A stretch of 64,000 nt of DNA from an uncultured Bacillota bacterium (GTDB taxonomy: Bacteria > Bacillota_I > Bacilli_A > RFN20 > CAG-288), in assembly GCA_949284445.1 (NCBI GenBank), contig CASDVP010000003.1:62001-126000 (forward strand). The letters run 5' to 3'. This document shows positions 17,459-59,125 of this stretch, piece by piece. The translations under genes and the position numbers were made by a program. The notes under the pieces are model-generated. The model made no database searches, was not told where the DNA came from, and saw only the letters and a list, made by a program, of their open reading frames with translations. Each line of letters starts with the position of its first letter. Positions within the stretch are counted from its first letter, which is position 1.

Positions 17459-17472
17459 TTTGCACTCTCCTA

Positions 17473-20556: not shown

Positions 20557-20674
20557 CACGTTTTCTCCTTTCTCTTAAAAAACCAAGCGATTTAAATCTG
20601 AAGCTATCGTAATAGAGAAAAAAAGATAAGCCAAGAATTTTGGCGTAAATTCATCAGCAAAAGTCGTAAAGTAT

Positions 20675-20688
20675 TGTAAGCGCTTAAG
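20675..20688 (-). promoter_or_regulatory. cre-like palindrome upstream of GH3 operon 1
   Basis: TGTAAGCGCTTAAG on the + strand (CTTAAGCGCTTACA on the -) fits the catabolite-response-element consensus TGWAANCGNTNWCA at 12 of 14 positions in either direction. It overlaps the stop codon of the histidine kinase gene and is about 120 bases before the GH3 start. The same AAGCGCTT core occurs at 36664, 45815 and 53354. I could not define a clear -35/-10 pair for this GH3 gene. Confidence 0.6.
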
Positions 20689-30842: not shown

Positions 30843-33803
30843 ATGTTAACAAAAGCAAATAACAGAGTTAAAATGTCGATCTGTTTAGCCTTTTCTCTTT
30901 TTTTCATCACTTCTTGCACTTCAACTAGTTCAATAAAATATAATTCATCAAAAGGCGATGATACACCGATTTCTTCGACCACTACCAAACCAGATTCCTC
31001 TAAAGACAACCTTTCATCTGCGAGCAAAGATAATAATAGTTCTTCAACAAGCTCAAGTGGTGGTAGTGAAGATGATAAACCATTTGAACGTGGTGAAAGC
31101 GGACCAGTATTAACTGGAAAGCCATATGCTTTAAATGATATTCCTAATGCACCCGAGGCATATGGACCTGTGCCGTCAAATTCACAAATGAAATATTATG
31201 ACGAAGGTCTTTCAATGTTCATCCACTTTGGAATTAACACTTTTACCGATGCCGAATGGGGTGATGGAACTGAAGATCCTAATGATTTTCAACCCACTGA
31301 TCTCAACACTGACCAATGGGTGAGCGTTGCTAAAGAAAATGGTTTTAAGCGTATTTTATTCACGGCAAAACATCATGATGGCTTTGTCAATTATCCGACA
31401 GCTTATACTGATCATTCAGTCGCTAGTTCTTCATGGTTAGACGGAAAAGGTGATGTCCTCAGATCCTTTATCGATTCATGTGAAAAATATGATGTCGGTG
31501 CAGGTATTTATCTATCTCCATGGGATAGAAATATGCCGTGTTATAGCACTGATATCGCTCCTGATTATAATGATGTCTATGTCAACATGATCAAAGAGAT
31601 CTTCGATAACTATGGTAATGAAGAACTGGATAACATCGTTGAATTCTGGCTTGATGGAGCTTGTGGTGAGCCAGAAACACGTCCCACTTATGATTATGCT
31701 AAATGGTGGGAAACCATGTATGAATATAACGAAGATATCGTCATCAAATCCGAGTACGGCTCTACTGTTCATTGGATAGGTGATAAAGAATGTAATCTCG
31801 GGTGGGGTGGAGACCAAAATTGGCAGACATATAATAAAGAATATCTGTGGGGCGGATTCCCAGATAAATATAATAAAACGAACGATTTCAATAAATATTT
31901 AAATAATGGTGTTCCTTATATCGAAGGTAAAACTGGTAAAGAAAACGCTAATATATGGTCCGTTTCAGAAGCTGACATTTCAATAAGAACAACTGGAAGT
32001 GGAGAAACTGGTGCTTGGTTTTGGAGCCCGACAGATAAAACGAGATCTGTCGAAAATCTGATCGATATCTATTTTAATTCTGTAGGTAGAGGTGGTGTCT
32101 TTTTACTCAACGTTCCACCGACAACAGCTGGTCAATTCGAACAATGTGATATCGATGCTCTAGAAGAATTTCATGAGATTTTAACAAACACATTCACAAA
32201 TGATAAAGCTTTAAACGCTGAAGTCTTATCATCCAGTACTAGAGACGAAAGTGGTAATTTTGATGCATCAAACTTAACCGATACCGATTATGACACTTAT
32301 TGGGCCTTACCAGATGATGAATTATCTGGAACAGTCACTATCAATTTTGATCAACCAACTAATATGGACGTTGTCGAACTTCAAGAATATATTCCATTAG
32401 GTCAACGAATTCATAACTATAAAGTTGAAGTTCAGATCGGTGATACATGGATGGACTATGGTAGTGGAACAACAATCGGTTATAAACGTTTAGTCAAAGG
32501 CAAACCAGTCACTGCAAATGCTGTCAAAGTGACAGTAGACGGCTATGCGACACCAATTTTAAATCACATAGGTGTCTATAAAGCTGATAAAAGAATTGAA
32601 GAGGAAGTAGAGTTCACTTCTCCTGGCACTATTGAAGCTAATAAATTTTCTAAGCAATCTGGTAGTATAAAAGAACAAACTAAAGGTGGTGTAGCTAATA
32701 TCGGAAGCATCAAGAATGGTAATGCTGTCAAATATTCAGACATCCTTTTCAATGCTACACCAGATACTATTTCTTTTAATTACGCTGGAGCTGGTAATCC
32801 GACAGGTGCTGATACTAAAGTCACAGTCAGACTGGATGAAAAAGATGGTCCTGTAATACTCACTGCAGATTTAGCGTCCACCGGAAGCTATTATAATTTC
32901 ACAACTTCACCTAGCTATAATATCGATTATGACGAAGAAATCACTGGGTATCATGATTTATGGCTATCATTTGAAGGAAAGGCTGGATCAGGTCAAAATG
33001 CCGGCATCAATTTAGCATCATTTTCTCTTGAAACAATCAATACCATCAATTTTGAGCAAGATGAATTGTTCATTGATAAAACCGAAAACAAAGCTTTGCT
33101 CAAAGTAAAACGTACTAACCCAAGCGGTCAATCCACCATTAAAGTTCAAAGCATCGATCAGAGTGGAAAAGGTGGTGTTAATTATCAAAAATTAGATTCT
33201 GAGATCACATTTAATGATGGTGAGACTGAAAAGACGATCGAAATCCCACTGCTAAATGGTGATATAGAGACTGCTTATTATGATTTTAAAGTTCAAATAT
33301 CTGATGCTGAAAACGCCTATATCGGAGCAAAAGATGAGATCACCATCAATGTCATAGATGAAGCAAAAGCACAGAACTATCATATCGGTACAGAGGTGAC
33401 AATGAGTATAAATGATATCAAAGTCACTGGAAAACAAGAAACTGCTGAGAACAAAACATCCACAACCTTTAATATCACTGGCGCTGATGAAAAAGGTGGT
33501 GGAAAAACCGGAACTATCAAAAACGGAACTGATGATGGCTTTAAAGCTAATGGTAAAAAGCAGATCGTCCATCTATTCATCAAGAATAAAGGCGACGAAG
33601 AAGTTAATATTCGCTATTACCTAAACACCTCTAAAGTCACTGATGATTTAAATGGTGTCACACTCACAATTCCAGGAAAATCAACTGTTGATGCTTATTT
33701 CTCATTTACATTTGAAGAGAACAATGATGTGTTTGGCGGTATCTTATTATGCACCAATATTCCAGATACTGAATTAGTGTTCACCGGATACATATTCGAA
33801 TGA
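30843..33803 (+). CDS. GH29 alpha-L-fucosidase lipoprotein, multidomain
   Basis: A 986-residue lipoprotein: signal peptide with ITSC lipobox (Cys25), a Ser/Asp/Lys linker to ~85, then a GH29 catalytic domain (~100-450) with FIHFGINTF, TAKHHDGF and the nucleophile Asp271 in FWLDGACGE. Next come an F5/8-type C (CBM32-like) domain (~455-580), a CBM6-like domain (~590-730), a Calx-beta domain (~733-838), and a C-terminal beta module (~845-986) shared with the lipoproteins at 45900 and 56198. GH29 enzymes release alpha-L-fucose from glycans such as mucin or milk oligosaccharides. Anchored outside the cell. No fucose transport or catabolic genes adjoin it. The GH29 call is secure; linkage preference is not readable. 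Confidence 0.92.
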   Translation: MLTKANNRVKMSICLAFSLFFITSCTSTSSIKYNSSKGDDTPISSTTTKPDSSKDNLSSASKDNNSSSTSSSGGSEDDKPFERGESGPVLTGKPYALNDIPNAPEAYGPVPSNSQMKYYDEGLSMFIHFGINTFTDAEWGDGTEDPNDFQPTDLNTDQWVSVAKENGFKRILFTAKHHDGFVNYPTAYTDHSVASSSWLDGKGDVLRSFIDSCEKYDVGAGIYLSPWDRNMPCYSTDIAPDYNDVYVNMIKEIFDNYGNEELDNIVEFWLDGACGEPETRPTYDYAKWWETMYEYNEDIVIKSEYGSTVHWIGDKECNLGWGGDQNWQTYNKEYLWGGFPDKYNKTNDFNKYLNNGVPYIEGKTGKENANIWSVSEADISIRTTGSGETGAWFWSPTDKTRSVENLIDIYFNSVGRGGVFLLNVPPTTAGQFEQCDIDALEEFHEILTNTFTNDKALNAEVLSSSTRDESGNFDASNLTDTDYDTYWALPDDELSGTVTINFDQPTNMDVVELQEYIPLGQRIHNYKVEVQIGDTWMDYGSGTTIGYKRLVKGKPVTANAVKVTVDGYATPILNHIGVYKADKRIEEEVEFTSPGTIEANKFSKQSGSIKEQTKGGVANIGSIKNGNAVKYSDILFNATPDTISFNYAGAGNPTGADTKVTVRLDEKDGPVILTADLASTGSYYNFTTSPSYNIDYDEEITGYHDLWLSFEGKAGSGQNAGINLASFSLETINTINFEQDELFIDKTENKALLKVKRTNPSGQSTIKVQSIDQSGKGGVNYQKLDSEITFNDGETEKTIEIPLLNGDIETAYYDFKVQISDAENAYIGAKDEITINVIDEAKAQNYHIGTEVTMSINDIKVTGKQETAENKTSTTFNITGADEKGGGKTGTIKNGTDDGFKANGKKQIVHLFIKNKGDEEVNIRYYLNTSKVTDDLNGVTLTIPGKSTVDAYFSFTFEENNDVFGGILLCTNIPDTELVFTGYIFE

Positions 33804-36731: not shown

Positions 36732-37214
36732 ATGATAAATCTACGCCATGAAGCAGTCGCTATCATCATTGAAATTTGTGATCGTTATAAAGATGAACCA
36801 TCCCCATTGATGTTGATTTTATCTGATGTTCAGAAGGAATACGGCTATATTCCTCTCGAAGTTCAAGAGATAATCTCAGCTAAAACTGGCATTCCTCTTT
36901 CAGACATCTATGGAGTGGTCACTTTTTATAATTTCTTCTCGCTAGAACCAAAAGGAAAATATGTCATCGATGTCTGTATGGGCACAGCTTGCTACGTTAA
37001 AGGCGGTCAGAATGTATTGGATAAATTCTGTGAATTATTAAAGATCAAACAAGGTCAGACCACTGAAGATGGTATGTTTTCTTTAGACGGTATCCGTTGT
37101 TTAGGCGCTTGTGGTATCGCACCAGCTGTCAGCATCAACGGTAAAGTCTATCCGAAAGTAACATTGGCTCAAGTTCCTCAAATCATCAAAGAATATCGTG
37201 AAATGGAGAAATGA
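36732..37214 (+). CDS. hydC: NuoE-like [2Fe-2S] subunit of NAD-linked [FeFe] hydrogenase
   Basis: A 160-residue thioredoxin-fold [2Fe-2S] protein. Four cluster cysteines are visible in the usual pairs: CMGTAC (in VIDVCMGTACYVKGG) and CLGAC (in DGIRCLGACGIAP). The N-terminal helical part contains the family's VQKEYGYIPLEVQEIIS. It is the small electron-transfer subunit that pairs with the NuoF-like flavoprotein encoded next. The run of G before the ATG (AAAGGGGG) is the ribosome binding site. Stop and next start are one base apart. Confidence 0.93.
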   Translation: MINLRHEAVAIIIEICDRYKDEPSPLMLILSDVQKEYGYIPLEVQEIISAKTGIPLSDIYGVVTFYNFFSLEPKGKYVIDVCMGTACYVKGGQNVLDKFCELLKIKQGQTTEDGMFSLDGIRCLGACGIAPAVSINGKVYPKVTLAQVPQIIKEYREMEK

Positions 37215-37215
37215 C

Positions 37216-39123
37216 ATGGCTACACAAAAAACAAAGAAAAACAAAGTTAACGAAGAAGTGATCAAAGATATTGCTAGTCTAGATAAAAAGATCGCTTCTT
37301 GCACTAAAACCTTAGATGAAAAGTTTTCTGGTAAAGATAAGAAGCGTCATATCGTCGTTTGTGGTGGAACCGGTTGCCTTTCTTCTGATTCTGCAAAAAT
37401 CGTCGAAGAATTAAACAAAGAGATCAAAAAACGCAAATTAGAAAGCAAAGTAACCGTAAACATCGTCGGTTGTTTCGGCTTCTGTTCACAGGGTCCATTC
37501 GTCAAGATCTTCCCTGAAGATACCTTGTATCACGGTGTCAAACCAGCTGATGCTAAGCGCATCATCGAAGAAGATATTGTCAACGGAAAAATAGTCGAAG
37601 ATCTTTTATATGTCGATCCGACCACTAAAGAAAAGATCAAACGTCAAGACGACATCAATTTTTATAAAAAACAGATGCGCATCGCACTTCACGGATGCGG
37701 AACTATCAATCCTGAAGATCTCAATGAAGCTTTTGGTTATGATGGCTTTAAAGCTCTTAGAAAAGTTCTACAGATGGATAGGCAAGCTGTCATCGATGAG
37801 ATCTCAAAATCAGGTTTGAGAGGAAGAGGTGGTGCTGGCTTCCCGACAGGTAGAAAATGGCAATTCGCTTATGACCAAAAGAGTGATGAGAAATATGTCA
37901 TCTGCAATGGTGATGAAGGTGATCCCGGGGCCTTTATGGACCGTTCAATATTAGAAGGCAATCCTGCAAGCGTCATCGAAGGTATGATGATAGCCGGTTA
38001 TGCTATCGGTGCTAAACAAGGCTACTTCTATATCAGAGCTGAATATCCAATCGCCTGTAATCGTATCAAAACCTGCATCAAAGAGATGGAAGAAGCTGGA
38101 TTGTTAGGCGATAACATTCTAGGAACCGATTTTTCATTCCACATCGGCTTGAGATATGGTGCTGGTGCTTTCGTCTGCGGTGAAGAAACAGCTCTTTTGA
38201 ATTCTATCGAAGGAAAAAGAGGTATGCCTAGACCTAAGCCACCGTTTCCCGCTGTCTCTGGTCTCTGGGGTAAACCAACTATCATCAACAACGTGGAAAC
38301 TCTCGCTAATGTCCCTTATATCATCCGTGTAGGCGCTGAAGAATTTGCAAAAATCGGTACTGATAAGAGCAAAGGAACAAAGGTTTTTGCTCTCGGCGGA
38401 AAAGTTAAAAATGTCGGTTTAGTCGAAGTACCTATGGGTACGACTTTAAGAACCTTGATTTATGATATCGGCGGTGGAATTCAAAATGATAAAAAATTCC
38501 AAGCTATTCAAACCGGTGGACCTTCAGGAGGTTGCTTGACGATCGATGAATTAGATGTTCCTATCGACTATGATTCATTAGTCGCTCATGGCTCTATGAT
38601 GGGTTCAGGCGGTGCTATCGTCATGGACGAAGACAACTGTATGGTCGATGTTGCTAAATTCTATATGCAGTTTATCTGTGATGAATCTTGCGGAAAATGT
38701 TCACAATGCCGTATCGGAACCAAGAGATTATTAGAGATCATGACTAGAATCACCGATGGAAAAGCTAAGCTTTCTGACTTAGATAAATTGACAGAATTAG
38801 CTGATTCTATCACTGTCGGTGCTCTCTGCGGTCTAGGTCAAACAGCTGCTAATCCGATCACCTCAACTCTCAGCAAATTCCGTGATGTCTATGTCAGACA
38901 TATCATGGACAAGAAATGTGATGCTGGTGTTTGTAAAACTCTTATCTCATATCATATCAATCCCGATAAATGCCGCAAATGTTCGTTATGTTCAAGAGGA
39001 TGCCCGGTTAACGCTATCTCAGGTGTAGTCGGAAAAGAAGCTTATAAAATCGATCAGAATAAATGCATAAAATGTGGTTCATGTATCGCTAGCTGCCGCT
39101 TCGGTGCTATTTATAAGGAGTAA
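37216..39123 (+). CDS. hydB: NuoF-like NADH/FMN subunit of NAD-linked [FeFe] hydrogenase
   Basis: A 635-residue flavoprotein from the ATG at 37216 (a GTG at 37198 is the longer alternative; GGAGAA precedes the ATG). Order: Lys-rich start, N-terminal thioredoxin-like [2Fe-2S] domain (VVCGGTGCLSSDS ... GCFGFC), NuoF core with the NADH/FMN loops GRGGAGFPTGRKW and NGDEGDPGAFMDR, the C-x2-C-x2-C cluster motif ESCGKCSQCRIG, and a C-terminal two-[4Fe-4S] ferredoxin domain (CRKCSLCSRGCP, CIKCGSCIASC). This is the architecture of HydB/HndC in trimeric, electron-bifurcating hydrogenases that use NAD(H) together with ferredoxin. Bifurcation is known for the family, not shown by this sequence. Confidence 0.93.
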   Translation: MATQKTKKNKVNEEVIKDIASLDKKIASCTKTLDEKFSGKDKKRHIVVCGGTGCLSSDSAKIVEELNKEIKKRKLESKVTVNIVGCFGFCSQGPFVKIFPEDTLYHGVKPADAKRIIEEDIVNGKIVEDLLYVDPTTKEKIKRQDDINFYKKQMRIALHGCGTINPEDLNEAFGYDGFKALRKVLQMDRQAVIDEISKSGLRGRGGAGFPTGRKWQFAYDQKSDEKYVICNGDEGDPGAFMDRSILEGNPASVIEGMMIAGYAIGAKQGYFYIRAEYPIACNRIKTCIKEMEEAGLLGDNILGTDFSFHIGLRYGAGAFVCGEETALLNSIEGKRGMPRPKPPFPAVSGLWGKPTIINNVETLANVPYIIRVGAEEFAKIGTDKSKGTKVFALGGKVKNVGLVEVPMGTTLRTLIYDIGGGIQNDKKFQAIQTGGPSGGCLTIDELDVPIDYDSLVAHGSMMGSGGAIVMDEDNCMVDVAKFYMQFICDESCGKCSQCRIGTKRLLEIMTRITDGKAKLSDLDKLTELADSITVGALCGLGQTAANPITSTLSKFRDVYVRHIMDKKCDAGVCKTLISYHINPDKCRKCSLCSRGCPVNAISGVVGKEAYKIDQNKCIKCGSCIASCRFGAIYKE

Positions 39124-39126
39124 TGT

Positions 39127-40929
39127 ATGGCCAAGAAAGTAACGATTTATATTGAGGATAGACCTTATCTCGTCGATGAAGGACAGTCGATCTTAGAAGC
39201 TGCTAAAAGCTGTGGATTCAACATTCCTAATCTCTGCAATTGGAGAGATCACAAATGCTCGTTAGCTTCTTGCCGCGTCTGCTTAGTCAAAGTGGAAGGT
39301 GAAAGAAGATTGATCCCGAGCTGCGCTTATCCGGTCAGAGATGGCCTTCGCATTTCAATTTCTGATCCAGCAGCCGTCTCTGCAAGAAGAACTTCAGTTG
39401 AACTTCTCTTATCTAATCATTATTACAACTGCCAAGCTTGTAGAAAAAATGGACATTGTGAATTATTAGAAGTCGCTAGAGAAGTCGGTGCTCGTCCAGA
39501 ATTATATGTCGGTGCTAAAACTCCGACGACCTTGGATGAGATAGCACCTGGTATCGTCAGAGATACTTCTAAATGCATCTTATGTGGAAAATGTATCGAA
39601 GCTTGTAAAGAATCACAAGGCATCGGTATCTTAGGATTTGAAAATCGCGGATTTCAAACCATCGTCGGTCCAGTCGCCAACAAATCTTTTGTCAATGTCC
39701 CCTGTATTCAATGCGGTCAATGCACTTTAGTCTGCCCGACAGGTGCTCTGATGGAGCATAATGACATTCCTAAATTAGATAAAGCCAGCCAAGATCATAA
39801 GACTATCATCGCCTTTGTCGCTCCGGCTGTCAGAGCTGCTATCGGTGAAGAATTCGGTGAAAAAATCGGAACCAATTGCACTGGTAAATTAGCAGCAGCT
39901 TTACATCGCTTAGGCTTCTATCGATGTTTTGATTTGAATTTCGGCGCTGATCTCACCATCATGGAAGAAGCGACTGAATTTGTCAAACGTCTTTCACAGC
40001 ATTCACCAAAACCGTTGCTCACATCTTGCTCACCAGGCTGGATCAACTATATTGAATACAATTATCCTGATTTATTGCCTCATCTCTCAACCTGCAAATC
40101 GCCTCAGCAGATGATGGGTGCTATCATCAAGTCTTATTATGCTGAAAAGAAAGGTATCGACCGCTCACAGATTTGTGTCGTCTCTATCGTCCCTTGCACG
40201 GCTAAGAAATTTGAAAGGCAAAGAAAAGAGATGAAGGTTGATGGCATCGATGATGTCGATGTCGTTTTGACCACTCGTGAATTAGGACAGCTCATCAGAC
40301 GTTCTGGTATCATTTGGAGCCGTTTACCAAACGAGGATTTTGACCATGATCTGATCGGCGAAAACTCCGGAGCAGGTGTCATCTTTGGTGTCACTGGAGG
40401 TGTGATGGAAGCAGCTATCAGAACCGCTTATCACATCATCACTAATCAAGAGATGGAGCCTGTCAATTTCACTCCTGTGAGAGGCTTAGAAGGTATTAAA
40501 GAAGCTTCTTTATCAATAGCTGGTATCAATTTGAACATCGCTGTCTGCTCAGGTATGAAAAATGCTAAAGTTCTTTTAGACGCCATCCGGGCTGGCAATT
40601 CCAAATATGATTTCATCGAAGTCATGGGATGCCCTGGCGGTTGTATAAACGGTGGTGGTCAGCCTTATGTCTTCCCAGTCTTCTTACCTGATGAAGATCC
40701 TGATATCTGGTATACCTATCGTGAAAAGAGAGCCAAGGTCTTATATGAAGAAGATAAAGGCAAGCCGATCAGAAGAAGTCATCTCAACCCTGATATTCAA
40801 AAACTATATAAAGATTTCTTGATCAATCCCGGTTCACCGATAGCTGAAAAACTGCTTCACACCTCTTACAATTTCCATCGTGAACCCTATCCAGAACCGA
40901 CAGAAAAAACCACTCCAATAACTAAATAA
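39127..40929 (+). CDS. hydA: [FeFe] hydrogenase catalytic subunit HydA
   Basis: A 600-residue catalytic subunit. Domains: plant-type [2Fe-2S] ferredoxin (residues ~1-80; CNWRDHKCSLASCRVC), His-Cys [4Fe-4S] motif (HYYNCQACRKNGHC), two [4Fe-4S] motifs (CILCGKCIEAC, CIQCGQCTLVCP), then the H-cluster domain with L1 TSCSPGW, L2 VPCTAKKFE and L3 EVMGCPGGCINGGGQP. L2 normally reads MPC; the Met that packs against the diiron site is Val here. It starts 3 bases after hydB with AAGGAG upstream. Reaction: reversible H2 formation with the NuoE/NuoF-like partners. Maturases HydE, HydF and HydG are not in the window. Confidence 0.94.
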   Translation: MAKKVTIYIEDRPYLVDEGQSILEAAKSCGFNIPNLCNWRDHKCSLASCRVCLVKVEGERRLIPSCAYPVRDGLRISISDPAAVSARRTSVELLLSNHYYNCQACRKNGHCELLEVAREVGARPELYVGAKTPTTLDEIAPGIVRDTSKCILCGKCIEACKESQGIGILGFENRGFQTIVGPVANKSFVNVPCIQCGQCTLVCPTGALMEHNDIPKLDKASQDHKTIIAFVAPAVRAAIGEEFGEKIGTNCTGKLAAALHRLGFYRCFDLNFGADLTIMEEATEFVKRLSQHSPKPLLTSCSPGWINYIEYNYPDLLPHLSTCKSPQQMMGAIIKSYYAEKKGIDRSQICVVSIVPCTAKKFERQRKEMKVDGIDDVDVVLTTRELGQLIRRSGIIWSRLPNEDFDHDLIGENSGAGVIFGVTGGVMEAAIRTAYHIITNQEMEPVNFTPVRGLEGIKEASLSIAGINLNIAVCSGMKNAKVLLDAIRAGNSKYDFIEVMGCPGGCINGGGQPYVFPVFLPDEDPDIWYTYREKRAKVLYEEDKGKPIRRSHLNPDIQKLYKDFLINPGSPIAEKLLHTSYNFHREPYPEPTEKTTPITK

Positions 40930-45833: not shown

Positions 45834-45862
45834 TTGAAACTATATCTGCAGTAATGTAAAAT
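45834..45862 (+). promoter_or_regulatory. Promoter of GH3 operon 2
   Basis: TTGAAA (45834-45839), 17-base spacer, TAAAAT (45857-45862), 37 bases before the ATG of the lipoprotein gene. Confidence 0.7.
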
Positions 45863-45899: not shown

Positions 45900-47774
45900 A
45901 TGAAAGGAAAGAATAGGTTGAGCCTACTTATCTTAGCTCTTGGCTCGATAAGTATTTTAGCAAGTTGTAGTGAGACTTCCTTCTCCCTCCCATCTTATGA
46001 GCAGGGCGAAGATTTGACATGGGATGATATCCATGATCCCAATCGACCAGATGGCGATTTTGATTATGATGATGACTATGTTCCAGTCGATCCACCTGAG
46101 ATTATTCGTGAAGAGACGCCCGAACTCGATCCCGCGTATGAAGCAGGTTCAAAAACATCCGTCACCAGAATGGAAGCTGAGAATGCCTATGTCGATTTTG
46201 TCGGGTCAAACGCTTCCGCATGGAGAAATGTTTTCAGTGATGTCGATAAACTCGCCTTTGATTTCAGGCTTAGCAATAAACTCTGCACTCGAAATTTGAA
46301 CGATTCTTGGCAGGGTGGTACATCGATAAACTTTGATTTCAATTCTAGTGAATCATATCTAGTCAAAGTAAAAGCATTGATTTCTACTCATGATAAGAAA
46401 ACCGATCCATATGTCCCTGGATCTAATTTCAAAGTTAAATCTGAAGGAAAAAATGAAAAAGGTGAAGAGCTCTATTCTTATGCGGATTTATCTGAGATTT
46501 CGATCCCACGCTCAGAAAGCAAAGAATTAGTATCTGGTGGAGAGGTTAATAGCGATTATTTCTATTTTGCAGAAATCGAATTTTATGCAGCTATTTACAA
46601 AGGTGATACCACGATAAAATTTGAATTCGACGGAGGTGGAAAAGGCTGTAACTTAGACTATATCGAAATTGAAACATCTGCCGAAATAACCGGCTTTGAT
46701 AATGACTATTATCAAGATGGCGATAAAGTCACTAGCCTTGATGGTAAAACTTCTGAATGGTATGTCTCACAAGCTCCGACTGAAACTGAAGCTGGTACAT
46801 TCACAGCCCAAAAATATATCGAAGGTGAATGGCATACCTACACTTATGGATTACCAGCATTATTAGATGAAGAAGGTGATCTAGTCGAAGGTTATACAAA
46901 AGGAAATGATGGCTCCTATTCGTTCGACTTTAAGAATGACAAAGTCACTTTCACACCTGGTGAAGCCTTGACTTCTACTCTCACCATCAGTGATGATTCC
47001 ATCGTCAAATTTGCTGGTGGAGCAACTTCGATCAAGAAAGAAGTCGGTAAACCTATCGAACTCACAGATTTTGAGCTTCCAGATGGAAAAGGAATAGGTG
47101 TGATAGTAGCTTATGATCAATTAGGGCATGACTTAGGCGCGATCACCTTATCTTCTTGGACAGTGCCAAGCTATGGTGTCACTTTAGAAGTCAGAACTCT
47201 GATCCCTGAAGGCTATACACAATATAACGCAGGCGATGAACAATTTAGCAGATTACCTAATCCTGTCTATGGTGGAGCAATCAAGGCTAATTTCTCAATC
47301 TCTTCTTCTTATGACACCTTCATTCACGGTACTGATGCAGATGAAGGATTATATGGTAGCGTGGTCTCCTATAATGGAACCCTCAATCCTAGAGGTATTC
47401 CATTACCAACAGACTCAAATCCAAATCCGACAGAAGCTGATACTCAATTTAGACTCGCGACTCATATCGGTAAAAGTGATGATGATAAACCTATCGTTTT
47501 AAATAAAGAGCATTCATTCATTTATTACTTAGAAAACTTTGGAGATACTAGAATGCATCTCAGACTGAATGTCGTCAATGCTAGCAATTCCATTGAACCT
47601 GATGATCCAGGAGTTGATATCGACTTAGACCCAGGTGAAGCTCTCACAGCGGTTGTCAACATCAAATTCACATTAGGTAGTAGCAATCGAAACACCATGG
47701 CTTTATTCACTGTCTTAGAAGATATTGAAAATATGAAATTAGGCATCGCGTTTATCGCTAAACTAGGTGCATGA
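45900..47774 (+). CDS. Carbohydrate-binding-type surface lipoprotein
   Basis: A 624-residue lipoprotein: lipobox LASC (Cys23), acidic Asp/Pro linker, a CBM6/35-like domain (~90-260) opening with VTRMEAENA and ending CNLDYIEIETSAEITGF, a small PTETEAGT...LPAL module (~290-330), a beta domain (~360-450), and the C-terminal module (~460-624) ending in MKLGIAFIAKLGA. The first two domains are shared with the lipoprotein at 15764, the last with the fucosidase and the protein at 56198. RBS: AGGAG and AAAGGAAA before the ATG. First gene of an operon with a small membrane protein and the second reversed GH3. Probable role: glycan capture for that enzyme (inference). Confidence 0.82.
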   Translation: MKGKNRLSLLILALGSISILASCSETSFSLPSYEQGEDLTWDDIHDPNRPDGDFDYDDDYVPVDPPEIIREETPELDPAYEAGSKTSVTRMEAENAYVDFVGSNASAWRNVFSDVDKLAFDFRLSNKLCTRNLNDSWQGGTSINFDFNSSESYLVKVKALISTHDKKTDPYVPGSNFKVKSEGKNEKGEELYSYADLSEISIPRSESKELVSGGEVNSDYFYFAEIEFYAAIYKGDTTIKFEFDGGGKGCNLDYIEIETSAEITGFDNDYYQDGDKVTSLDGKTSEWYVSQAPTETEAGTFTAQKYIEGEWHTYTYGLPALLDEEGDLVEGYTKGNDGSYSFDFKNDKVTFTPGEALTSTLTISDDSIVKFAGGATSIKKEVGKPIELTDFELPDGKGIGVIVAYDQLGHDLGAITLSSWTVPSYGVTLEVRTLIPEGYTQYNAGDEQFSRLPNPVYGGAIKANFSISSSYDTFIHGTDADEGLYGSVVSYNGTLNPRGIPLPTDSNPNPTEADTQFRLATHIGKSDDDKPIVLNKEHSFIYYLENFGDTRMHLRLNVVNASNSIEPDDPGVDIDLDPGEALTAVVNIKFTLGSSNRNTMALFTVLEDIENMKLGIAFIAKLGA

Positions 47775-47785
47775 GGGTGATGAAT

Positions 47786-48229
47786 ATGGTAAATGAATTA
47801 TTGAACTTAGTAAAAAACTATTTTAAGAATAGAACTTTGGCATTCTATTTTTCACTCGGCGTCGCTTTATTAACTTTGATCACTGGAATCGTTTATGCAG
47901 CCACCATCTTACCATTGGATGATAGAGCTTCTGTATTTCCGATAGTCATGCTGATCATAGGTGCATTACTTGTACCGATATTTGCCCTTTTTAGACTCAC
48001 TAGAATCGGTTTAGGCTGCATGTCATTATTAACATTCTTTGCCTTCATTTTATATCTGATCAGCATTTATGAATATCCGATCGAACAAGCCATGAACGTC
48101 TCTAACATTTGGGAAATAACTGGCATGACTAACATCATTGTTGTAGCTGTTATGATGTTCATCTTTTTCATAGCTTCAAATGTTTTAGCTTACATCAAAC
48201 AAGAAAAAATAGTTTTGGAGGACAAATAA
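47786..48229 (+). CDS. Small four-helix membrane protein inside GH3 operon 2
   Basis: A 147-residue protein from the ATG at 47786; GAGGGTGA at 47773-47780 is well spaced for it, while the in-frame ATGs at 47771 and 47780 are too close. Four membrane helices (about residues 20-40, 50-70, 75-95 and 110-135 of the chosen frame), short loops, basic C-terminus. No recognised family. It begins only 11 bases after the lipoprotein stop, and its TAA overlaps the ATG of the GH3 gene by one base (TAATG), so it is locked into this operon. It has no counterpart in GH3 operon 1. It may interact with the two membrane helices of the GH3 enzyme (inference). Confidence 0.75.
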   Translation: MVNELLNLVKNYFKNRTLAFYFSLGVALLTLITGIVYAATILPLDDRASVFPIVMLIIGALLVPIFALFRLTRIGLGCMSLLTFFAFILYLISIYEYPIEQAMNVSNIWEITGMTNIIVVAVMMFIFFIASNVLAYIKQEKIVLEDK

Positions 48230-51200
48230 TGATTAGAAAAATATTATTTAAGACATCATTAATATTATTTAATGTCTCGGCGATTCTGTTTGGATTTACA
48301 ACATTATTTGATAATGTCAGCCGCAATGGTGAAGTACAAGATGTTTTAGATTCCTTCCTAGGTGCTGGAAAGCAATATACAATCAACACTGGAAAACCTC
48401 CTGTCTATTATAAAAGCTGGTATCAAGGCATCGATGATCTGATGGCCGGAAATGGGAACTACGCTGCCGCTGCTGAAGCTGAAGGCGCTGTTCTTCTCAA
48501 GAATGAAAATGATGCTTTGCCTTTAAATAAAGAGACAGATAAGATTTCTTTGTTTGGTGTCAACGCTTATCAACCAGTCTACAGCCTCCTCGGCGCTGGT
48601 AAAGTGCAAATCGATGAAGATAAAAAACAAACCTTCGGACCCGAATTAGAAAAAGAGGGTTTCACCTTGAATAAGGAGCTCTCTTCATGGTATGAATCAC
48701 ACACCGAATATTATCGCGAATACAAAGATACAAATTTCATCAACTTCAGTATCAACGGTGCTAGTTGGGATGAGATCACTACTGATAGCAAACTAAACGA
48801 TGAATATAACACTGCTATCTATGTCCTCGGAAGAGTCGGTAATGAAGGTGTCGATTTACCACCATATACCACTGATAAAGGTGGAACTTCTGGTCTGACT
48901 AACGGCGATTATTTAAAATTGACCTCGAAAGAAATCAGTGTTTTAGAAGAATTAAAAAAAGCAAAAGATAACCACATTTTTGACAAGATCATCGTCTTAG
49001 TCAATTCAGCTAACCCGATTCAAGAACCAGACTTCTTAGACAAAGAAGAATTCGGAATAGATGCCGCTTTATGGGTTGGTTTACCAGGAAGCAATGGTAT
49101 CCCAGGCATCTGCAATCTCTTATCTGGAGATTCTACTCCTTCAGGTAGATTATCTGACACTTGGTATACCCATCGCGAAGCTAATCCTACTTACAACAAT
49201 TTTGGTAACTTTAATAATGGAAATTCATACGTCTTATATCAAGAAGGAATGTATATCGGTTATAAATATTCTGAAACCAGATATGAAGATTACGTTCTCA
49301 ATAATCAAAACGCTGGAACTTACAATTATGATGAAAACGTGAATTATCCTTTCGGATATGGATTATCATATACGACTTTCGAACAAAAGCTTATCTCAGT
49401 GGTAGCTGATCCTGATCCCGTCAAGAATTATTATTCCGGCGGTGTCATGGCTTCTAATAGCAAGACTTATCACGGAAATCGCGGTGAAAAGCGTCCTGAT
49501 GATGAATTGAGAGCGACTGGTGATAAACTTGGTGATAACGATGATCTGATCGTTAATGTCGAAGTCACTAACACCGGAGAAAAAGCTGGTAAAGAAGTAG
49601 TGCAAGTCTATCTGCAACAACCATATACTGAAGAGAACAAGACCAATCAAGTTGAAAAGCCAGCTGTCGAATTAGTCGGTTTTGCTAAGACTAGCAAACT
49701 TGAACCTGGTACATCTGAAACAGTTCAAGTCAAAATCGACGCGAATAAATTATTTGCCTCATATGATATCACCCAAAATGACTACATTTTGGATGAAGGA
49801 AAATATTATTTAACGGTCGCCAATAACGCCCATGATGCCGTCAATAATATCTTGGCAAAGAGAGGCATTTCACCTGCTGATCATCCTAATATGGATGAAG
49901 AAGGAGATGAAGCATTAGTAAAAGATATCGATATATCCAAAGAAAGATCTGAATCCTACAAATATTGGACTTTAGGTGAAGAAGATGTCACCAATCTCTT
50001 CGATCACGCCGATCCTAATAAAGTTGATCCTAACGGAAATAAGATCAACTTCATGTCCAGAAGCAATTGGACGGGAACTGTCAGCAGCACTCATCAAAGA
50101 GTTGATAAAACCGATGCTAGAGAAGAAGGAAGATCCTTTGACGATGGAAAGAACTATGACAACTGGGAAGAAAACTATCCATATTATGAGAAGGAAGATC
50201 CCACCTTTGGAAGAGAGTTAGATGAACCGTTGATGCTGATCGATATGAAAGGCATCGAATATGATCCTAGCCGTGGTGCGACTGATGAAGATATTCAAAA
50301 ATGGAGCGACTTCTTAGATCAACTCACCTGGGATGAGATGGTCAAACTGACTGGAAGCGGCAGAAGATTGACAGAAGCTATTGATTCAATCGCTAAACCA
50401 TTAACTAACGATTTAAATGCTTCTAATGGTCTTAACTGGAGATTCAATCCCACTATCGATAGCAAAGGAAATAATGGAACAATCGGTTTAGGCGCAGCAT
50501 TCGATCCTAATAACAGAAATAGATATCCGACCGGTTATCCTTGTGAAGGTATCATCGCTTCCACCTTTAATATTGATTTAGCTCATATCATCGGTCAAGC
50601 TATAGGCGAAGATGCTTTATGGGCAGGCGCTAGTGGATTATATGGTTTCGGCTTAAATCTACATCGCAATCCCTATCATGGAAGAGCTGGTGAGTATTAT
50701 TCAGAAGATCCGTTCTTGACCGGTGTGATTGCCGGTTATGAATCTCTCGGCGCTCAAGAAAAAGGTTTGTATGTCTACAATAAGCACTTCGTCTTAAACG
50801 ACCAAGAAGTGAACAGATCCTCTTATGCCTCTTGGATAACTGAGCAAGCTCTCAGACAAGAGCACTTGAGACCATTTGAAATCGCCTTAGAGATTTCAGA
50901 TGCTATGTGCGTGATGACAGGTTTCAATAGAATCGGCACTTATTGGACCGGAAACGATTATAACTTGATGACTAGATGGCTCAGAGGTGAAGCTGGTATG
51001 GCTGGCTTTGCTGTCACTGACTGGTACAAGAGCTCAGGTATGAATATGACTAATGGCCACTTAGCCGGAAATGATTTACCAGATGGTGATGCTACTAGCA
51101 CCTTCAAAGATAAAGGACCTGGCACTGGAAACGAATATTTCACTCAAGCTACAAGAATTTCAGCTATGAGAATCCTTTATACAGTCGCCAATTCTAATGC

Positions 51201-51381
51201 GATGAACTTCATCGGTGAAGACACGATCATCTACACGATAGATCCTGCTTGGTGGCAAGGTAGAGATATCTTAGTGACCACCATGGAAGCTGTCTTTATC
51301 GCTTTCAGCTGTTGCTTAGTCGGAACTAGCGCTTGGATGATCACCGCTGAAATCTTAAATCGAAAACGTCAAAATAAATAA
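48229..51381 (+). CDS. Second membrane-tethered GH3 glycosidase with reversed domain order
   Basis: A 1050-residue paralogue of the enzyme at 17473. N-terminal membrane helix (~8-30), then the GH3 C-terminal-type domain (from EAEGAVLLKNENDALPL, with VGNEGVDLPP holding the probable acid/base Glu), a fibronectin-III-like domain (KEVVQVYLQQPY), the GH3 barrel with YNKHFVLND and nucleophile Asp931 in VTDWY, and a C-terminal membrane helix (~1010-1035). GGAGG lies 8 bases before the ATG. Many barrel motifs (NLHRNPYHGR..EYYSEDP) are intact, so it should be active. Substrate may differ from its paralogue, since several loops differ in length. Co-transcribed with lipoprotein and membrane protein upstream. 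Confidence 0.9.
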   Translation: MIRKILFKTSLILFNVSAILFGFTTLFDNVSRNGEVQDVLDSFLGAGKQYTINTGKPPVYYKSWYQGIDDLMAGNGNYAAAAEAEGAVLLKNENDALPLNKETDKISLFGVNAYQPVYSLLGAGKVQIDEDKKQTFGPELEKEGFTLNKELSSWYESHTEYYREYKDTNFINFSINGASWDEITTDSKLNDEYNTAIYVLGRVGNEGVDLPPYTTDKGGTSGLTNGDYLKLTSKEISVLEELKKAKDNHIFDKIIVLVNSANPIQEPDFLDKEEFGIDAALWVGLPGSNGIPGICNLLSGDSTPSGRLSDTWYTHREANPTYNNFGNFNNGNSYVLYQEGMYIGYKYSETRYEDYVLNNQNAGTYNYDENVNYPFGYGLSYTTFEQKLISVVADPDPVKNYYSGGVMASNSKTYHGNRGEKRPDDELRATGDKLGDNDDLIVNVEVTNTGEKAGKEVVQVYLQQPYTEENKTNQVEKPAVELVGFAKTSKLEPGTSETVQVKIDANKLFASYDITQNDYILDEGKYYLTVANNAHDAVNNILAKRGISPADHPNMDEEGDEALVKDIDISKERSESYKYWTLGEEDVTNLFDHADPNKVDPNGNKINFMSRSNWTGTVSSTHQRVDKTDAREEGRSFDDGKNYDNWEENYPYYEKEDPTFGRELDEPLMLIDMKGIEYDPSRGATDEDIQKWSDFLDQLTWDEMVKLTGSGRRLTEAIDSIAKPLTNDLNASNGLNWRFNPTIDSKGNNGTIGLGAAFDPNNRNRYPTGYPCEGIIASTFNIDLAHIIGQAIGEDALWAGASGLYGFGLNLHRNPYHGRAGEYYSEDPFLTGVIAGYESLGAQEKGLYVYNKHFVLNDQEVNRSSYASWITEQALRQEHLRPFEIALEISDAMCVMTGFNRIGTYWTGNDYNLMTRWLRGEAGMAGFAVTDWYKSSGMNMTNGHLAGNDLPDGDATSTFKDKGPGTGNEYFTQATRISAMRILYTVANSNAMNFIGEDTIIYTIDPAWWQGRDILVTTMEAVFIAFSCCLVGTSAWMITAEILNRKRQNK

Positions 51382-53582: not shown

Positions 53583-55943
53583 ATGAAACACAAAAAGCAG
53601 AAAATGACTCTTTTCACCGCTATGATGATGTTAAGTTTAGTCAGTTGTACTGAAACTTCTTCAACGATTCTCTCTGGAAATAGTTCCTATACACCGATAT
53701 CCAGCACAAATGCTATCAATCCTCATAATATCGAAGTCCTCATCAGCGCTTTAAATCAAGAAGAATTAGCAGTGCAAGGAACATTCAAATTATCTTTTTA
53801 TCAAGCAGGTACTGAAACACTTATCAACAGTGTCACTACTAAAAATAGCATTGCAATAGGACCTGATTATTATTACAACTCCACAGAAGAAGATGGTGTT
53901 CTCGATTATAGTGAGTACTATAAAACTGCTGAAGGTTATGTCTCTGAAAGGACACTTTTACCAACCAATCAAGTTCGTGAAACAATTTATATTGATAAAG
54001 ATAACAACCCTTATTCATACGATGAAGTATTCTATAATTTCTTAGCATTTATCGATGCAGATGAATGCGAGATGGGTGAAGATGAAAATCATGTCTTAGT
54101 CACGGGTTTGAATGATACCGATAAAAAAGAAATCGTTTATGGCTTAACTTATTACAGTGATATCCCACTTGATACATTAGAGTTCGTTTATGATAAAGAT
54201 GAGAATTCTTGGTCAGGGAAATTAACTGGTTCTGATGAAGGTGTTCCAGTTGAAACGGAAGCTGGAAATATCACTATCGATATGAAATGTGAGATGGAGT
54301 TTGATTTAACAACACCTTCCGCTATCGGCTTTAATCCTGTTGTTTCGCTCCCATCAAGCGCTGAAAATGCTCCCTTACAAGAGCTGTTCACTAAATTACA
54401 AGCTGGAAATTATACGCTTGATATAAAAAGAACGGGTGGTATTGACCAAGGTGGTTCTCCCCAAAAATGGTATATCAATGATAAAGGTATTATCCGCACT
54501 AGCCTAGCTGATGATGGAAGTGTCAAAAGTGGATATGGCTATTATGATACTGGAACTGGTTTAGACCATGTCACTTATAATCAAGGAGAACTTGTCGGTA
54601 GTGAAACATTAGACACTAAAACTACTTTAGAAGATCTTAAAACACCATTCCTCTTTGCTGCTGAAGCCTTTGATCTCACCGATGAAAACACTTATGTATT
54701 AAAGAGCGGCTACGGATTTGAAGACTATATAGCATTAACTCTACCAGATGCCACTGCATCTTGGAATCAGCAGTACTATATCAATATTGATGATGGCTCA
54801 TTAAAGGTCACTTTAAATGATGATGGTTCAGCTACTTTTTTCTATTCTTACACCTATCTTGATTATGGTAATGAAGTAAAAGGCACCATCACTACCACAG
54901 TAAGTGCTATCAATAGCACTACTCTTCCATTCACATATACGCCTTATGAGGCACCAGATTTGACTAACTGGTCAGGTTATGGTGATGTTGCAACTGAACT
55001 ATTAGAACTATATTTAGGCAGTGATATCGACAAACTTCCTTTCCTCGATCCTACTACTGCTAAGACATATAAAGCTAGTGAAATCAACAATTACAATGGT
55101 CATTTATTAAGCATCACCAATTCTTATTCTGATGCTGCAACAGCACTTAGCACATATGAGGCTTATGTTGCTGAGTTAGAAGAAATGGGTTGGGTGAGAG
55201 ATGAAAAATATACAGATAGCACCGGTAGATATATGCTTGATGATGGTAAAGGAAATTACTATCACATCTCTATCACTAATAATACAAAATATATCTACTT
55301 GAAAGTCTATCAGCCAACCATCAGTTTGTCTGATTGGTATCACAGAAGCTTTGATGACCAATATGCATGTTGGATGACTTATACAACGAACGTTAAAACT
55401 TACGCAGATGAAACTGGTACTGGTGATCCCACCTCAAATACTACAGAAACAAATATCCAAAAGTTTAAAGATGGGGCCATGCAAGTCACCGAAAATGGTA
55501 AGCAAACAACCGTTTTCTATGAGGATGTCACAAATAATCGCTTTACTATTTTAGGGAAAAACTCAGATAACACTTGGGCACCTATCACTTATTATGATTT
55601 AGATACAGTCAATTTAACTAACTATCAAAATGGTGGTTATGTGACTGCTCCTTCACTGATGAACTATGTCGATTCATATTTTACTGAAGCAGAAGGTGAT
55701 GGCTCTTATACGCTCAATCCAGCAGTCACTAGTGCTATTGCTAAAGCACTATTTGATGTGACTGTTTCAGCAGAGGCAACTGGTTCATTACAAATGGATT
55801 TCTATGACAATGGTATCACTTTAACAATCACTGATTCTGTTGTAAATGAAGGTATCTTGACTGAAACAACTCTAAGTTTAAAAATCGATCATATCGGTCA
55901 CCAAGTAAGCTTCACTGTTCCTCAATTCGAATACGCTGAATAA
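53583..55943 (+). CDS. Large surface lipoprotein, unknown function
   Basis: A 786-residue lipoprotein: signal peptide with LVSC lipobox (Cys22), Ser/Thr linker, then a long beta-rich, Asp/Thr/Tyr-rich extracellular body. Two halves show loosely similar patterns (for example VSERTLLPTNQ.. and KTYADETGTGD.., each in the middle of hydrophobic/polar strand alternation) that suggest repeated domains, but I recognise none and see no catalytic motif. It lacks the C-terminal KLGIA-type module of the neighbouring lipoprotein. Transcribed alone from a good promoter, with a strong terminator behind it and a distant cre-like site upstream. Perhaps a solute- or polymer-binding surface protein; this is a guess from its location only. 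Confidence 0.7.
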   Translation: MKHKKQKMTLFTAMMMLSLVSCTETSSTILSGNSSYTPISSTNAINPHNIEVLISALNQEELAVQGTFKLSFYQAGTETLINSVTTKNSIAIGPDYYYNSTEEDGVLDYSEYYKTAEGYVSERTLLPTNQVRETIYIDKDNNPYSYDEVFYNFLAFIDADECEMGEDENHVLVTGLNDTDKKEIVYGLTYYSDIPLDTLEFVYDKDENSWSGKLTGSDEGVPVETEAGNITIDMKCEMEFDLTTPSAIGFNPVVSLPSSAENAPLQELFTKLQAGNYTLDIKRTGGIDQGGSPQKWYINDKGIIRTSLADDGSVKSGYGYYDTGTGLDHVTYNQGELVGSETLDTKTTLEDLKTPFLFAAEAFDLTDENTYVLKSGYGFEDYIALTLPDATASWNQQYYINIDDGSLKVTLNDDGSATFFYSYTYLDYGNEVKGTITTTVSAINSTTLPFTYTPYEAPDLTNWSGYGDVATELLELYLGSDIDKLPFLDPTTAKTYKASEINNYNGHLLSITNSYSDAATALSTYEAYVAELEEMGWVRDEKYTDSTGRYMLDDGKGNYYHISITNNTKYIYLKVYQPTISLSDWYHRSFDDQYACWMTYTTNVKTYADETGTGDPTSNTTETNIQKFKDGAMQVTENGKQTTVFYEDVTNNRFTILGKNSDNTWAPITYYDLDTVNLTNYQNGGYVTAPSLMNYVDSYFTEAEGDGSYTLNPAVTSAIAKALFDVTVSAEATGSLQMDFYDNGITLTITDSVVNEGILTETTLSLKIDHIGHQVSFTVPQFEYAE

Positions 55944-56197: not shown

Positions 56198-59125
56198 ATG
56201 AAAAAATCCTCTAAATTTTCACTTCTTATTCTTCCACTATTATTTTCGATGTCACTTTTTTCTTGTGAAAGTCCAATATCAAGTTCAAATTCGATATCAG
56301 ATACCTCTAAACCTATCGGCGTCAACTCATCAAATAGTTCTCATAATTCTAGTTCATCGAGTAGCAATTCTTCTTCAACAACTACAAAACCTGTTGAAAA
56401 GAAAGAAAAGCTCACAATAATTACACCGGATGGTATCAGTATTTCTCCAGATTATGTCGACGAATTTATTGTAGGTAACCCGATTATTTTACCTTCTGAA
56501 AATCAAGTGATCGGCTTAGGCACAAAAGAGATCATCGGTTATTTCATAATAGACACTGATGATGAAATCATCTCCGGTGAAACATTGATGATCAAAGGCG
56601 GTTTGACTGTTGAGATGAGAGTCAAAGAAACTGTCGCCTCTCTTACCATCATCAATAATACTGAAGCAGAGTTAGAAACCGACTATCAAACAGAATTTAA
56701 AATCGGTGAAGCTATCACTTTACCAAATGTCGTATCTTTACCAATCGGTTATGAATTAGATGGTTTCTATATTCAAGGAACTGATGAAAAGGCAGTCAGC
56801 GGTCAAACGATCATGCCTGAAGATGGTTTAACATTAGAACTGAGATTAACTGCATTAATTAAAGTGACCATTCATTTTGCTAGCCAATTACACGAAGATA
56901 TCGAAATTTATGTCAAAGCCGGTTCAACAATTGATCTGGACGAATATGATATCACCGATGATTTGCCTGCAAACTATGAGTTCGATCACTGGCATGGATC
57001 TGATGAAAACGGAGATATCATTATCAATGAAGAAAATGAAGTAGTTATCAATTCAGATACTGAGATTTGGTTTGCAGTGAAAATCGCTAAACGCACAGTT
57101 GAACTCATTCTACCAGATGGAGTAACTGTTAAAGAAAGTTATAAACGCGAATACGAAGTTGGAATTCAAACAGTAAAAGCTCCATTAAGTAGTGAAGTCG
57201 TCGGAATTCCAGCAGGTCAAGAAATCGATGGCTGGTATTACAAAGGTGAGTTATATGATGGTAAAACTATTATGCCTTTAGAAGGTATGACTTTAGAATT
57301 ACGCTTAAAAGCTATGGAATGCACTGTAACATTAAATTTGACTATACCAAACTCAAAAGTGACTATATCAGATGATTATCCGACAAAACAAACCTGTGAC
57401 TATGGAAAAGCCATAGCTTTACCAAAACGAGAGCAATTATCCGGAATTGCAGAGGATGCTAGAATCGAATGGTATGTAAATGATATCTTATGTGAATCTG
57501 ATGATTTTATCGTCACTGAAAAGAAAACCACTATTTCTTTAAAGGTCTATGTTAAAGCAAAATTCATACTTCCAAGCACCATCACTGTCAGTGAAGAATT
57601 AACACAAGCTGAATATCAAGCCGGTCAAAGTATTCCATTTATCAATGATATTACATCTTACATTCAAATCGATGAAAGTGAAACTAGAACCATTGATACC
57701 TGGTATTATCAAAAAGCTGATGGAACTCAAGCTAAAGCAACCAAATATGTGAAAATACCAGCTAGTGGATTGATCTTGATGCCAACTTTTCTATCTAAAG
57801 GCACACCATTAATCCCTGGGAAAAATAGTGCCAAAGATATACCGGATAGATTTGGTCACTATAGCGATGATTTAAAGACATTCACTTCTTATGATGATAG
57901 TGATGCCTCTTTATTCTCACCAAATGATGCAATCGTCGATGGTGAATCAGGAAGGATTTTTAATCACAGCGGTATATTAGCTATCAATGATGCCTTCAGA
58001 TTAAACACCATGACTGAAAGTGGAGTCACAAGTGATAAGCACTATCGTGTTTATTATCATCTTAAAAACTGTGGTGAAACTGAACTATCATTTGATTTAT
58101 ATCAAATCAATTCAAAAACTGATATTTTATCCTCAAACACATCTGTCAAATATCCAGATACCATCACATTGGCAAAAGATGAAACCATTTCATTATCAAT
58201 CGAATTCACTGGCTATGATAACAACAACCTTCTCTCTATGATCGTCATGAAAAAAGAAGTTATAAATATGCGCTTAGGTATTGCAATGTCATTTGAAGAA
58301 TTCACACCAACTATCGATCCTAGCATTAAATACACTTTAACCTTATCAGAAAAAGATGACATAACTTTTGCAGATGGAAGTAAAACCGCTGAACTAGCTC
58401 AAGGAGAAACATTACCAGAAATAATCAACAATACTGGAAGGATCATTGAAGGTTATCATTCTGATGATAAGATCTTTGACGAATTCACCATGCCTAATCA
58501 AGATATCACTATCGCACCTCATTACATCAATAATGGATATCGAAGAATGTGGTATGGCGATGGTAAAGAAGATGGTATACCTGACAAGTTATCTGGAGGC
58601 GTAAGCGCAGATAATTTCGTAAAATTACGTGATCCTCTCACTCAATCTGATCCGTCGATTTACGGTGATATCAAAGACGTGATGAAAACTATTGTCAATG
58701 GTGGAGAAAACGGCTTTGCACAACAAGGCGTCTTGATGCAATATAATTCTACGATGAAAACAGGCGGCGCTTTCCGCAATTCTATAGTCGTCAATGATAA
58801 ATCTGATACTAGCGGATCTCAATTCAAGCTAGAAAAAGATAAAACCTATACCTATAATTTCAACTTTGAAAACAAAGGCGATAGCGATATCGCTTTCCAA
58901 GTGACCTTTGTTAATAATGGCGTTGATAAAACCAGTACTGGTGAAGATAACACCTTCAAAGTCGAGTTAGCTAAAGGTGAAAGCATGACTATAACTTGCA
59001 ATGTTTCTTACTTAACTTTCTATAGCGGTAGCACAAATGATAATGCTAATCTCTTATTTGAAGCTTTATCAGATATGACCGATATCAAGCTAGGTATCGC
59101 AATGTCTATTAAAATTCCCGAATAA
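56198..59125 (+). CDS. Repeat-built surface lipoprotein with two C-terminal KLGIA-type modules
   Basis: A 975-residue lipoprotein: LFSC lipobox (Cys23), Ser/Asn linker to ~65, then about six beta repeats of ~75 residues (~70-534). Repeats share a pattern: an opening strand like LTIITPDGI, a Y-x-x-E[FY].[IV]G segment, I.[GD][WF]Y, and a closing MP..GLTLELRL (e.g. EDGLTLELRL, LEGMTLELRL), related in layout to InlB B-repeat/Listeria-Bacteroides repeat domains. A module of ~175 residues (~534-708) ending MRLGIAMSFEEF follows, one more repeat (~710-775, GYHSDDKIFDEFTMPNQDITI), and a second module (~778-975) ending IKLGIAMSIKIPE. No enzyme motif. Likely an adhesin or glycan-binding surface protein. 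GGGAG precedes the ATG. Confidence 0.78.
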   Translation: MKKSSKFSLLILPLLFSMSLFSCESPISSSNSISDTSKPIGVNSSNSSHNSSSSSSNSSSTTTKPVEKKEKLTIITPDGISISPDYVDEFIVGNPIILPSENQVIGLGTKEIIGYFIIDTDDEIISGETLMIKGGLTVEMRVKETVASLTIINNTEAELETDYQTEFKIGEAITLPNVVSLPIGYELDGFYIQGTDEKAVSGQTIMPEDGLTLELRLTALIKVTIHFASQLHEDIEIYVKAGSTIDLDEYDITDDLPANYEFDHWHGSDENGDIIINEENEVVINSDTEIWFAVKIAKRTVELILPDGVTVKESYKREYEVGIQTVKAPLSSEVVGIPAGQEIDGWYYKGELYDGKTIMPLEGMTLELRLKAMECTVTLNLTIPNSKVTISDDYPTKQTCDYGKAIALPKREQLSGIAEDARIEWYVNDILCESDDFIVTEKKTTISLKVYVKAKFILPSTITVSEELTQAEYQAGQSIPFINDITSYIQIDESETRTIDTWYYQKADGTQAKATKYVKIPASGLILMPTFLSKGTPLIPGKNSAKDIPDRFGHYSDDLKTFTSYDDSDASLFSPNDAIVDGESGRIFNHSGILAINDAFRLNTMTESGVTSDKHYRVYYHLKNCGETELSFDLYQINSKTDILSSNTSVKYPDTITLAKDETISLSIEFTGYDNNNLLSMIVMKKEVINMRLGIAMSFEEFTPTIDPSIKYTLTLSEKDDITFADGSKTAELAQGETLPEIINNTGRIIEGYHSDDKIFDEFTMPNQDITIAPHYINNGYRRMWYGDGKEDGIPDKLSGGVSADNFVKLRDPLTQSDPSIYGDIKDVMKTIVNGGENGFAQQGVLMQYNSTMKTGGAFRNSIVVNDKSDTSGSQFKLEKDKTYTYNFNFENKGDSDIAFQVTFVNNGVDKTSTGEDNTFKVELAKGESMTITCNVSYLTFYSGSTNDNANLLFEALSDMTDIKLGIAMSIKIPE

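Follow-up and report, generated by a model that had tools for sequence, protein, structure and literature searches.

What does the pairing of a reversed GH3 glycosidase with a putative binding lipoprotein at positions 45900–51381 represent: a functional unit of the cell surface, or merely a recurrent arrangement of neighbouring genes? The question arose from an earlier note on the same DNA, a 64,000-nucleotide stretch of contig CASDVP010000003.1 from an uncultured Bacillota bacterium (the window), in which two such loci had been reported. Both were found where the note had placed them, on opposite strands (Table 1; the second spans 15764–22782), but they are not the only two, since about twenty paired loci occur in the genome. 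This twenty-fold paralogy, the GHKL/LytTR regulatory systems and the four-TM and two-TM partner proteins described below were features absent from the note.

Table 1. Positions in the window of the features of the reported and second loci
Feature	Position	Strand	Basis or remark
Sigma-A-type promoter (TTGAAA-N17-TAAAAT), 5′ of the operon	45834–45862	+	Direct sequence reading, consensus match only
Lipoprotein A, 624 aa	45900–47774	+	Lipobox LASC, Cys23
CBM35-like domain of lipoprotein A, residues 86–265, ending in NLDYIEIETSAEITG	46155–46694	+	
C-terminal domain of lipoprotein A, residues 422–621	47163–47762	+	Profile search
152-aa four-TM protein, family TM4	47771–48229	+	
Reversed GH3, 1050 aa	48229–51381	+	Pfam, motif alignment, hydropathy
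975-aa protein carrying the C-terminal domain of lipoprotein A twice	56198–59125	+	4.8 kb 3′ of GH3
Lipoprotein B, 564 aa, with CBM35-like domain and PT..EAGT..LPAL module	15764–17458	−	Lipobox ITSC
Reversed GH3 with two TMs, 1028 aa	17473–20559	−	
GHKL-type histidine kinase (AgrC-like, multi-TM)	20684–22057	−	PF14501, E 7e-23
LytTR response regulator	22054–22782	−	PF00072 and PF04397

At the reported locus, the start of the 152-aa gene sits within the stop of lipoprotein A (ATGA), and the start of the GH3 gene within the stop of the 152-aa gene (TAATG). Judged by these overlaps of 1–4 bases, lipoprotein A, the four-TM protein and GH3 form one operon. Lipoprotein A is made up of a CBM35-like domain, a PT..EAGT..LPAL module and a beta-sandwich-like repeat at the C-terminus, and the enzyme consists of an N-terminal TM, GH3_C (acid/base E206), Fn3, the GH3_N barrel (nucleophile D931) and a C-terminal TM. 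The order lipoprotein, four-TM protein and GH3 was kept in the sister genome G004, with another gene upstream and a lipoprotein A orthologue 82% identical, and was also present in a Clostridia MAG (L145). The C-terminal domain of lipoprotein A is also present in further surface proteins encoded by this genome, for example the neighbouring 975-aa protein, which is possibly a satellite surface protein. A structural model of this domain (mean pLDDT 58) matched beta-sandwich/CBM4-like folds only, and at that pLDDT no assignment beyond “beta-sandwich” was trusted. A 786-aa protein encoded between the module and the 975-aa protein (53583–55943) had no Pfam match at E up to 0.01.

Neither the 152-aa protein nor the related TM4 members gave a convincing Pfam match. 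Weak matches to AmoC and to an acyltransferase fell below cut-off and were judged to be chance, and a GtrA identity was rejected on a profile comparison with the GtrA-like neighbour of Streptococcus suis (0.5% probability). Members of the TM4 family adjoin GH3 genes, usually overlapping them, in Bacilli relatives and in Clostridia. A separate two-TM family of ~90 aa resembles the C-terminal anchor of the GH3s (E about 1e-4).

The genome (1,469,369 bases, 91% complete) contains 24 GH3 genes, 22 of them reversed. The reversed domain order claimed in the note was confirmed by Pfam in both window enzymes, as GH3_C, an Fn3-like domain and GH3_N. By hydropathy, the only basis of the TM assignments, an N-terminal TM was predicted in 22/22 reversed GH3s and a second TM past the barrel in essentially all of them; the enzymes are thus probably anchored in the membrane by both ends, with the active site probably facing outward. 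This agrees with the suggestion of the note that binding protein and hydrolase may both be membrane-held. On alignment, the nucleophile Asp (TD/SD), KH, the R..E..SED motif and the acid/base Glu were kept in all 22, and the residues after the nucleophile varied among these paralogues; the glycone Asp of the DGP motif was replaced by Asn or lost in several, the reported enzyme having NAS. The reversed GH3s therefore look like active enzymes of diverged specificity. The nearest NCBIfam models, all far below cut-off, were those of arabinopyranosidase, beta-glucosidase and beta-xylosidase. Beta-glycosidase activity, a mark of the permuted GH3 subfamily, is putative here. The two normal-order GH3s, G000:C1:104858-107212 and G000:C5:131008-133461 (784 and 817 aa), have no TM, and the latter has its own GHKL/LytTR pair.

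The CBM-like domains of lipoproteins A and B and 40 relatives were joined in one profile, which matched CBM35 structures in the PDB (2w47/2w1w, E 1e-13; 2vzp, E 7e-10). An AlphaFold model of the domain at 45900 (pLDDT 81) had the CBM35 structures 2w1w and 2w46 as its top fold matches, and the EAE and NLDYI ends were retained. The CBM6/35-like reading of the note was confirmed, by CBM35 matches of both sequence profile and predicted fold. Binding of carbohydrate (and calcium), as known for CBM35, is putative here; such domains would capture or position a glycan or glycoside.

In a neighbourhood survey of lipoprotein homologues, 18/18 CBM35-like ORFs of the genome lay no further than 5.1 kb from a reversed GH3, leaving none without a GH3 neighbour, and four of the 18 were part of the GH3 polypeptide itself. 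Among the matches listed for relatives, about 51 of 56 were near a GH3; of the roughly five exceptions, three were clearly away from GH3 and two on short contigs. Lipoprotein homologues regularly lacking a GH3 neighbour, which the note had named as evidence against its reading, were thus not observed. CBM35-like domains were absent from the same-genus genomes in which GH3 was not found. Viewed from the enzyme, 20 of the 22 reversed GH3s were either fused to a surface lipoprotein, CBM35-like or of another kind, or had one encoded no more than 2.6 kb away. The fused CBM35 domains are C-terminal to GH3 and in most cases also past a TM hairpin, a layout that would place the binding domains on the outer side of the membrane together with the enzyme.

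The second locus carries a GHKL kinase and a LytTR regulator 5′ of GH3 on the same strand, and the kinase belongs to a family with 13 members in GH3 loci. Across the genome, 13 of 14 LytTR genes were within 5 kb of a GH3, a zone that makes up 19.6% of the sequence (binomial p ~7e-9). GH3 and a two-component system were linked at 13 of the 24 GH3 genes, and 10 of the 22 reversed ones were without LytTR within 5 kb. Over 59 genomes, the numbers of LytTR and GH3 genes were correlated (Pearson 0.97, Spearman 0.79, kinship left uncorrected). Relatives were surveyed through stretches around GH3, LytTR or CBM35 genes; starting from LytTR, a reversed GH3 was found within 6 kb in 52 of 57 neighbourhoods and an adjacent GHKL kinase in 56 of 57. 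Of 69 loci in named genomes where a reversed GH3 was recognised, 24 had both kinase and regulator in the neighbourhood (e.g. in Eubacterium plexicaudatum, Butyrivibrio, S. suis and Bifidobacterium asteroides). All these surveys used profiles built on this genome, and hence biased toward its relatives, and draft assemblies with genes called by a simple longest-ORF rule, in which high-GC genomes are undercounted.

The binding sites of LytTR proteins are direct repeats spaced by about two helical turns. Scanning with the literature consensus WMMGTTNRK was too loose in this AT-rich DNA and gave no discrimination. When direct repeats of 11 bp with at least 10 identical positions were sought without any consensus, their spacing peaked at 21 and 22 bp and at no other distance, and did so upstream of module genes alone. 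Genes for the enzymes, CBM35 proteins or TM proteins of the module had such repeats in 13 of 78 promoters, versus 3 of 225 for others (Fisher p 3e-6); the rule was fixed after the first genome had been seen, and the relatives alone gave 7/57 versus 3/162 (p 0.004). The repeats cover about one module promoter in six, and their sequences vary between loci, which would fit each regulator having its own site. No two-component system or LytTR regulator adjoins the reported locus, and no 21/22-bp direct repeat was detected in its promoter, comparison with G004 included; control in trans or plain expression from the sigma-A-type promoter is therefore indicated for this copy.

The reading that we favour, and hold to be probable, is that 45900–51381 is one copy of a paralogous cell-surface unit, a regulated and membrane-held glycan-foraging module. 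As read from the sequence, its core is an exo-glycosidase of the permuted GH3 type that keeps its catalytic residues and has predicted membrane helices at both ends, the active site probably facing outward. Its gene is accompanied by that of a small membrane protein and by a CBM35-like partner, either lipid-anchored beside the enzyme or fused to it via a membrane hairpin. The CBM35 protein would hold the glycan or glycoside in place, and GH3, at the membrane, would cleave off its terminal sugar; the released product would be imported by a transporter encoded elsewhere. Often, a dedicated GHKL kinase and LytTR regulator beside the enzyme would detect the substrate and activate the operon by way of direct repeats spaced by two helical turns. 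The substrate probably differs from copy to copy; the glycone pockets vary.

The same parts could instead be an enzyme-coupled receptor, in which the double-anchored GH3 and its four-TM or two-TM partner act as sensor for the GHKL kinase next to them. Hydrolysis or binding would then be read via the membrane helices, and nutrition would be secondary. The kinases of the GH3 loci are multi-TM proteins with no evident extracellular sensor domain. AgrB (PF04647) was absent from this genome and from GH3-rich relatives, so no Agr-type peptide is expected, and the idea of an Agr pheromone system was rejected. Both ends of GH3 are predicted to be in the membrane, and an Asp was common in the C-terminal TM (63 of 145 GH3s from this and related genomes, versus 10 of 153 for the N-terminal TM), the anchor that the two-TM miniproteins resemble. 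The support nevertheless consists of gene proximity and helix features, no kinase is present beside the reported locus, and the enzymes seem catalytically complete, more than a pure receptor would require. We consider the receptor possible but doubtful. A combined arrangement, with GH3, binding lipoprotein and sensor-less GHKL kinase forming one sensing-and-feeding complex in about twenty specificities within a reduced genome, is put forward with similar reserve, as a tentative idea.

The foraging module might also be nothing more than a set of ordinary Gram-positive PULs, its parts together only through the general clustering of carbohydrate genes. Gram-positive PULs (gpPULs) are on record in Roseburia and Eubacterium rectale, where a linked transporter is part of the definition and where one of them, Ros-7, has a histidine kinase and a LytTR response regulator (PMC5320581). 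They share with the module a clustered glycoside hydrolase without SusCD and, at those copies where a two-component system is linked, a dedicated regulator. In the clostridial relative E. plexicaudatum a GH2 gene and an MFS_2 transporter gene do stand in the cluster beside the two-component system and GH3. In the lineage of the window, however, transporters and other CAZymes were mostly absent from these loci. Neither window locus contained an ABC permease (PF00528), only the C8 locus among those with a reversed GH3 had one within a few kb, and the PF00528 permeases were mostly encoded away from GH3 loci. The co-occurrence of GH3, CBM35 protein, small TM protein and two-component system some twenty times also speaks against general clustering, and we regard ordinary PULs as a rather unlikely explanation. 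The PUL-like system without SusCD that the note had supposed is thus upheld as regards SusD, no SusD/RagB match having been found in the genome, whereas a PUL in the strict Gram-positive sense is not fully supported, because the transporter that it requires is usually not linked.

Maintenance of the cell envelope, with the GH3s trimming surface glycans of the cell itself or of neighbouring bacteria in place of dietary or host ones, was also weighed. GH3 includes beta-N-acetylhexosaminidases, and an LtaS-like sulfatase-fold protein with N-terminal TMs (13517–15499) adjoins the second locus. The closest NCBIfam models given above point away from such a role, and no GH3 was detected in the same-genus genomes G001, G005 and G014, which makes the function a dispensable and variable one, in line with foraging. 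Envelope maintenance is accordingly judged improbable.

Chance neighbourhood or recent tandem copying is scarcely credible: all the GH3s are paralogues, but those of the two window loci are only 33% identical, every CBM35 ORF of the genome is near a GH3, and the gene order of the reported locus recurs in the Clostridia MAG. The GH3 modules were multiplied by duplication, but not by recent tandem copying. The proposal that the pairing is kept by function and not by recent tandem copying therefore stands as far as the independence from gene order and the fusions are concerned, and needs amendment in that duplication did spread the module.

Several known systems share parts with the foraging module. 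The ruminal beta-glycosidase GlyA1 is a permuted GH3 (alpha/beta-sandwich, FnIII, TIM barrel) linked to gut microbes, and it has the same domain order as the module enzymes, with the nucleophile Asp in the barrel and the acid/base Glu in the sandwich (PMC5104943). The accessible part of that paper reports no TM helix for GlyA1, whereas the module GH3s are predicted to be anchored at both ends and have CBM35, small TM and two-component partners (PMC5104943). In Butyrivibrio proteoclasticus, LytTR genes were described in 2010 beside secreted GH3s with a C-terminal TMH at three loci, a regulator–enzyme neighbourhood shared with the module (PMC2914790). The portion of that report at hand makes no mention of a CBM35 lipoprotein, small TM partner, N-terminal anchor, fusions or binding-site repeats, and its three loci compare with about twenty module copies in the present 1.5-Mb genome (PMC2914790). 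The CBM35 modules 2w47, 2w1w and 2vzp share profile and predicted fold with the module domain, which unlike them is carried by stand-alone lipoproteins or across a TM hairpin from the enzyme. With AgrC/AgrA-type GHKL–LytTR systems the module has in common the domain types of kinase and regulator and, at about one module promoter in six, the 21/22-bp repeat spacing; those are peptide pheromone systems, whereas here AgrB is missing and the neighbour is a glycosidase. A Sus-type PUL of Bacteroidetes, in contrast, has the SusC/SusD pair. None of the open-licence literature found joined a CBM35 lipoprotein, small TM protein, double-anchored GH3 and two-component system. Most of the parts are of known kinds; no description of their combination, or of an expansion on this scale, as a unit was found in the literature searched.

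Few carbohydrate enzymes would usually be expected of uncultured gut Bacilli whose genomes are reduced. This one has given some twenty GH3 units, its binding proteins and nearly all its LytTR regulators to a single design. If the foraging reading is true, the design would be a way for Gram-positive cells to forage at their surface without SusCD, would provide regulator/operator pairs of separate specificities that can be read from the genome, and would give GHKL kinases a role beyond peptide signalling. The core of double-anchored GH3 and GHKL/LytTR system was also found in Lachnospiraceae, Oscillospiraceae, S. suis and B. asteroides, and can thus be tested in cultured strains.

Some further genes were recorded. 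AAA_14/DUF4143 ATPase genes occur beside module loci (L043:14484-15848 and L049:547-1857), and similar proteins recur. Between the two loci of the window, a GH29 alpha-L-fucosidase with F5/8, CBM6 and Calx-beta domains is encoded at 30843–33803, the C-terminus of which matches the C-terminal repeat of lipoprotein A. Three genes at 36732–40929 (thioredoxin-like 2Fe-2S protein, NuoF-like protein and hydrogenase large subunit) form an NADH-linked [FeFe]-hydrogenase cluster.
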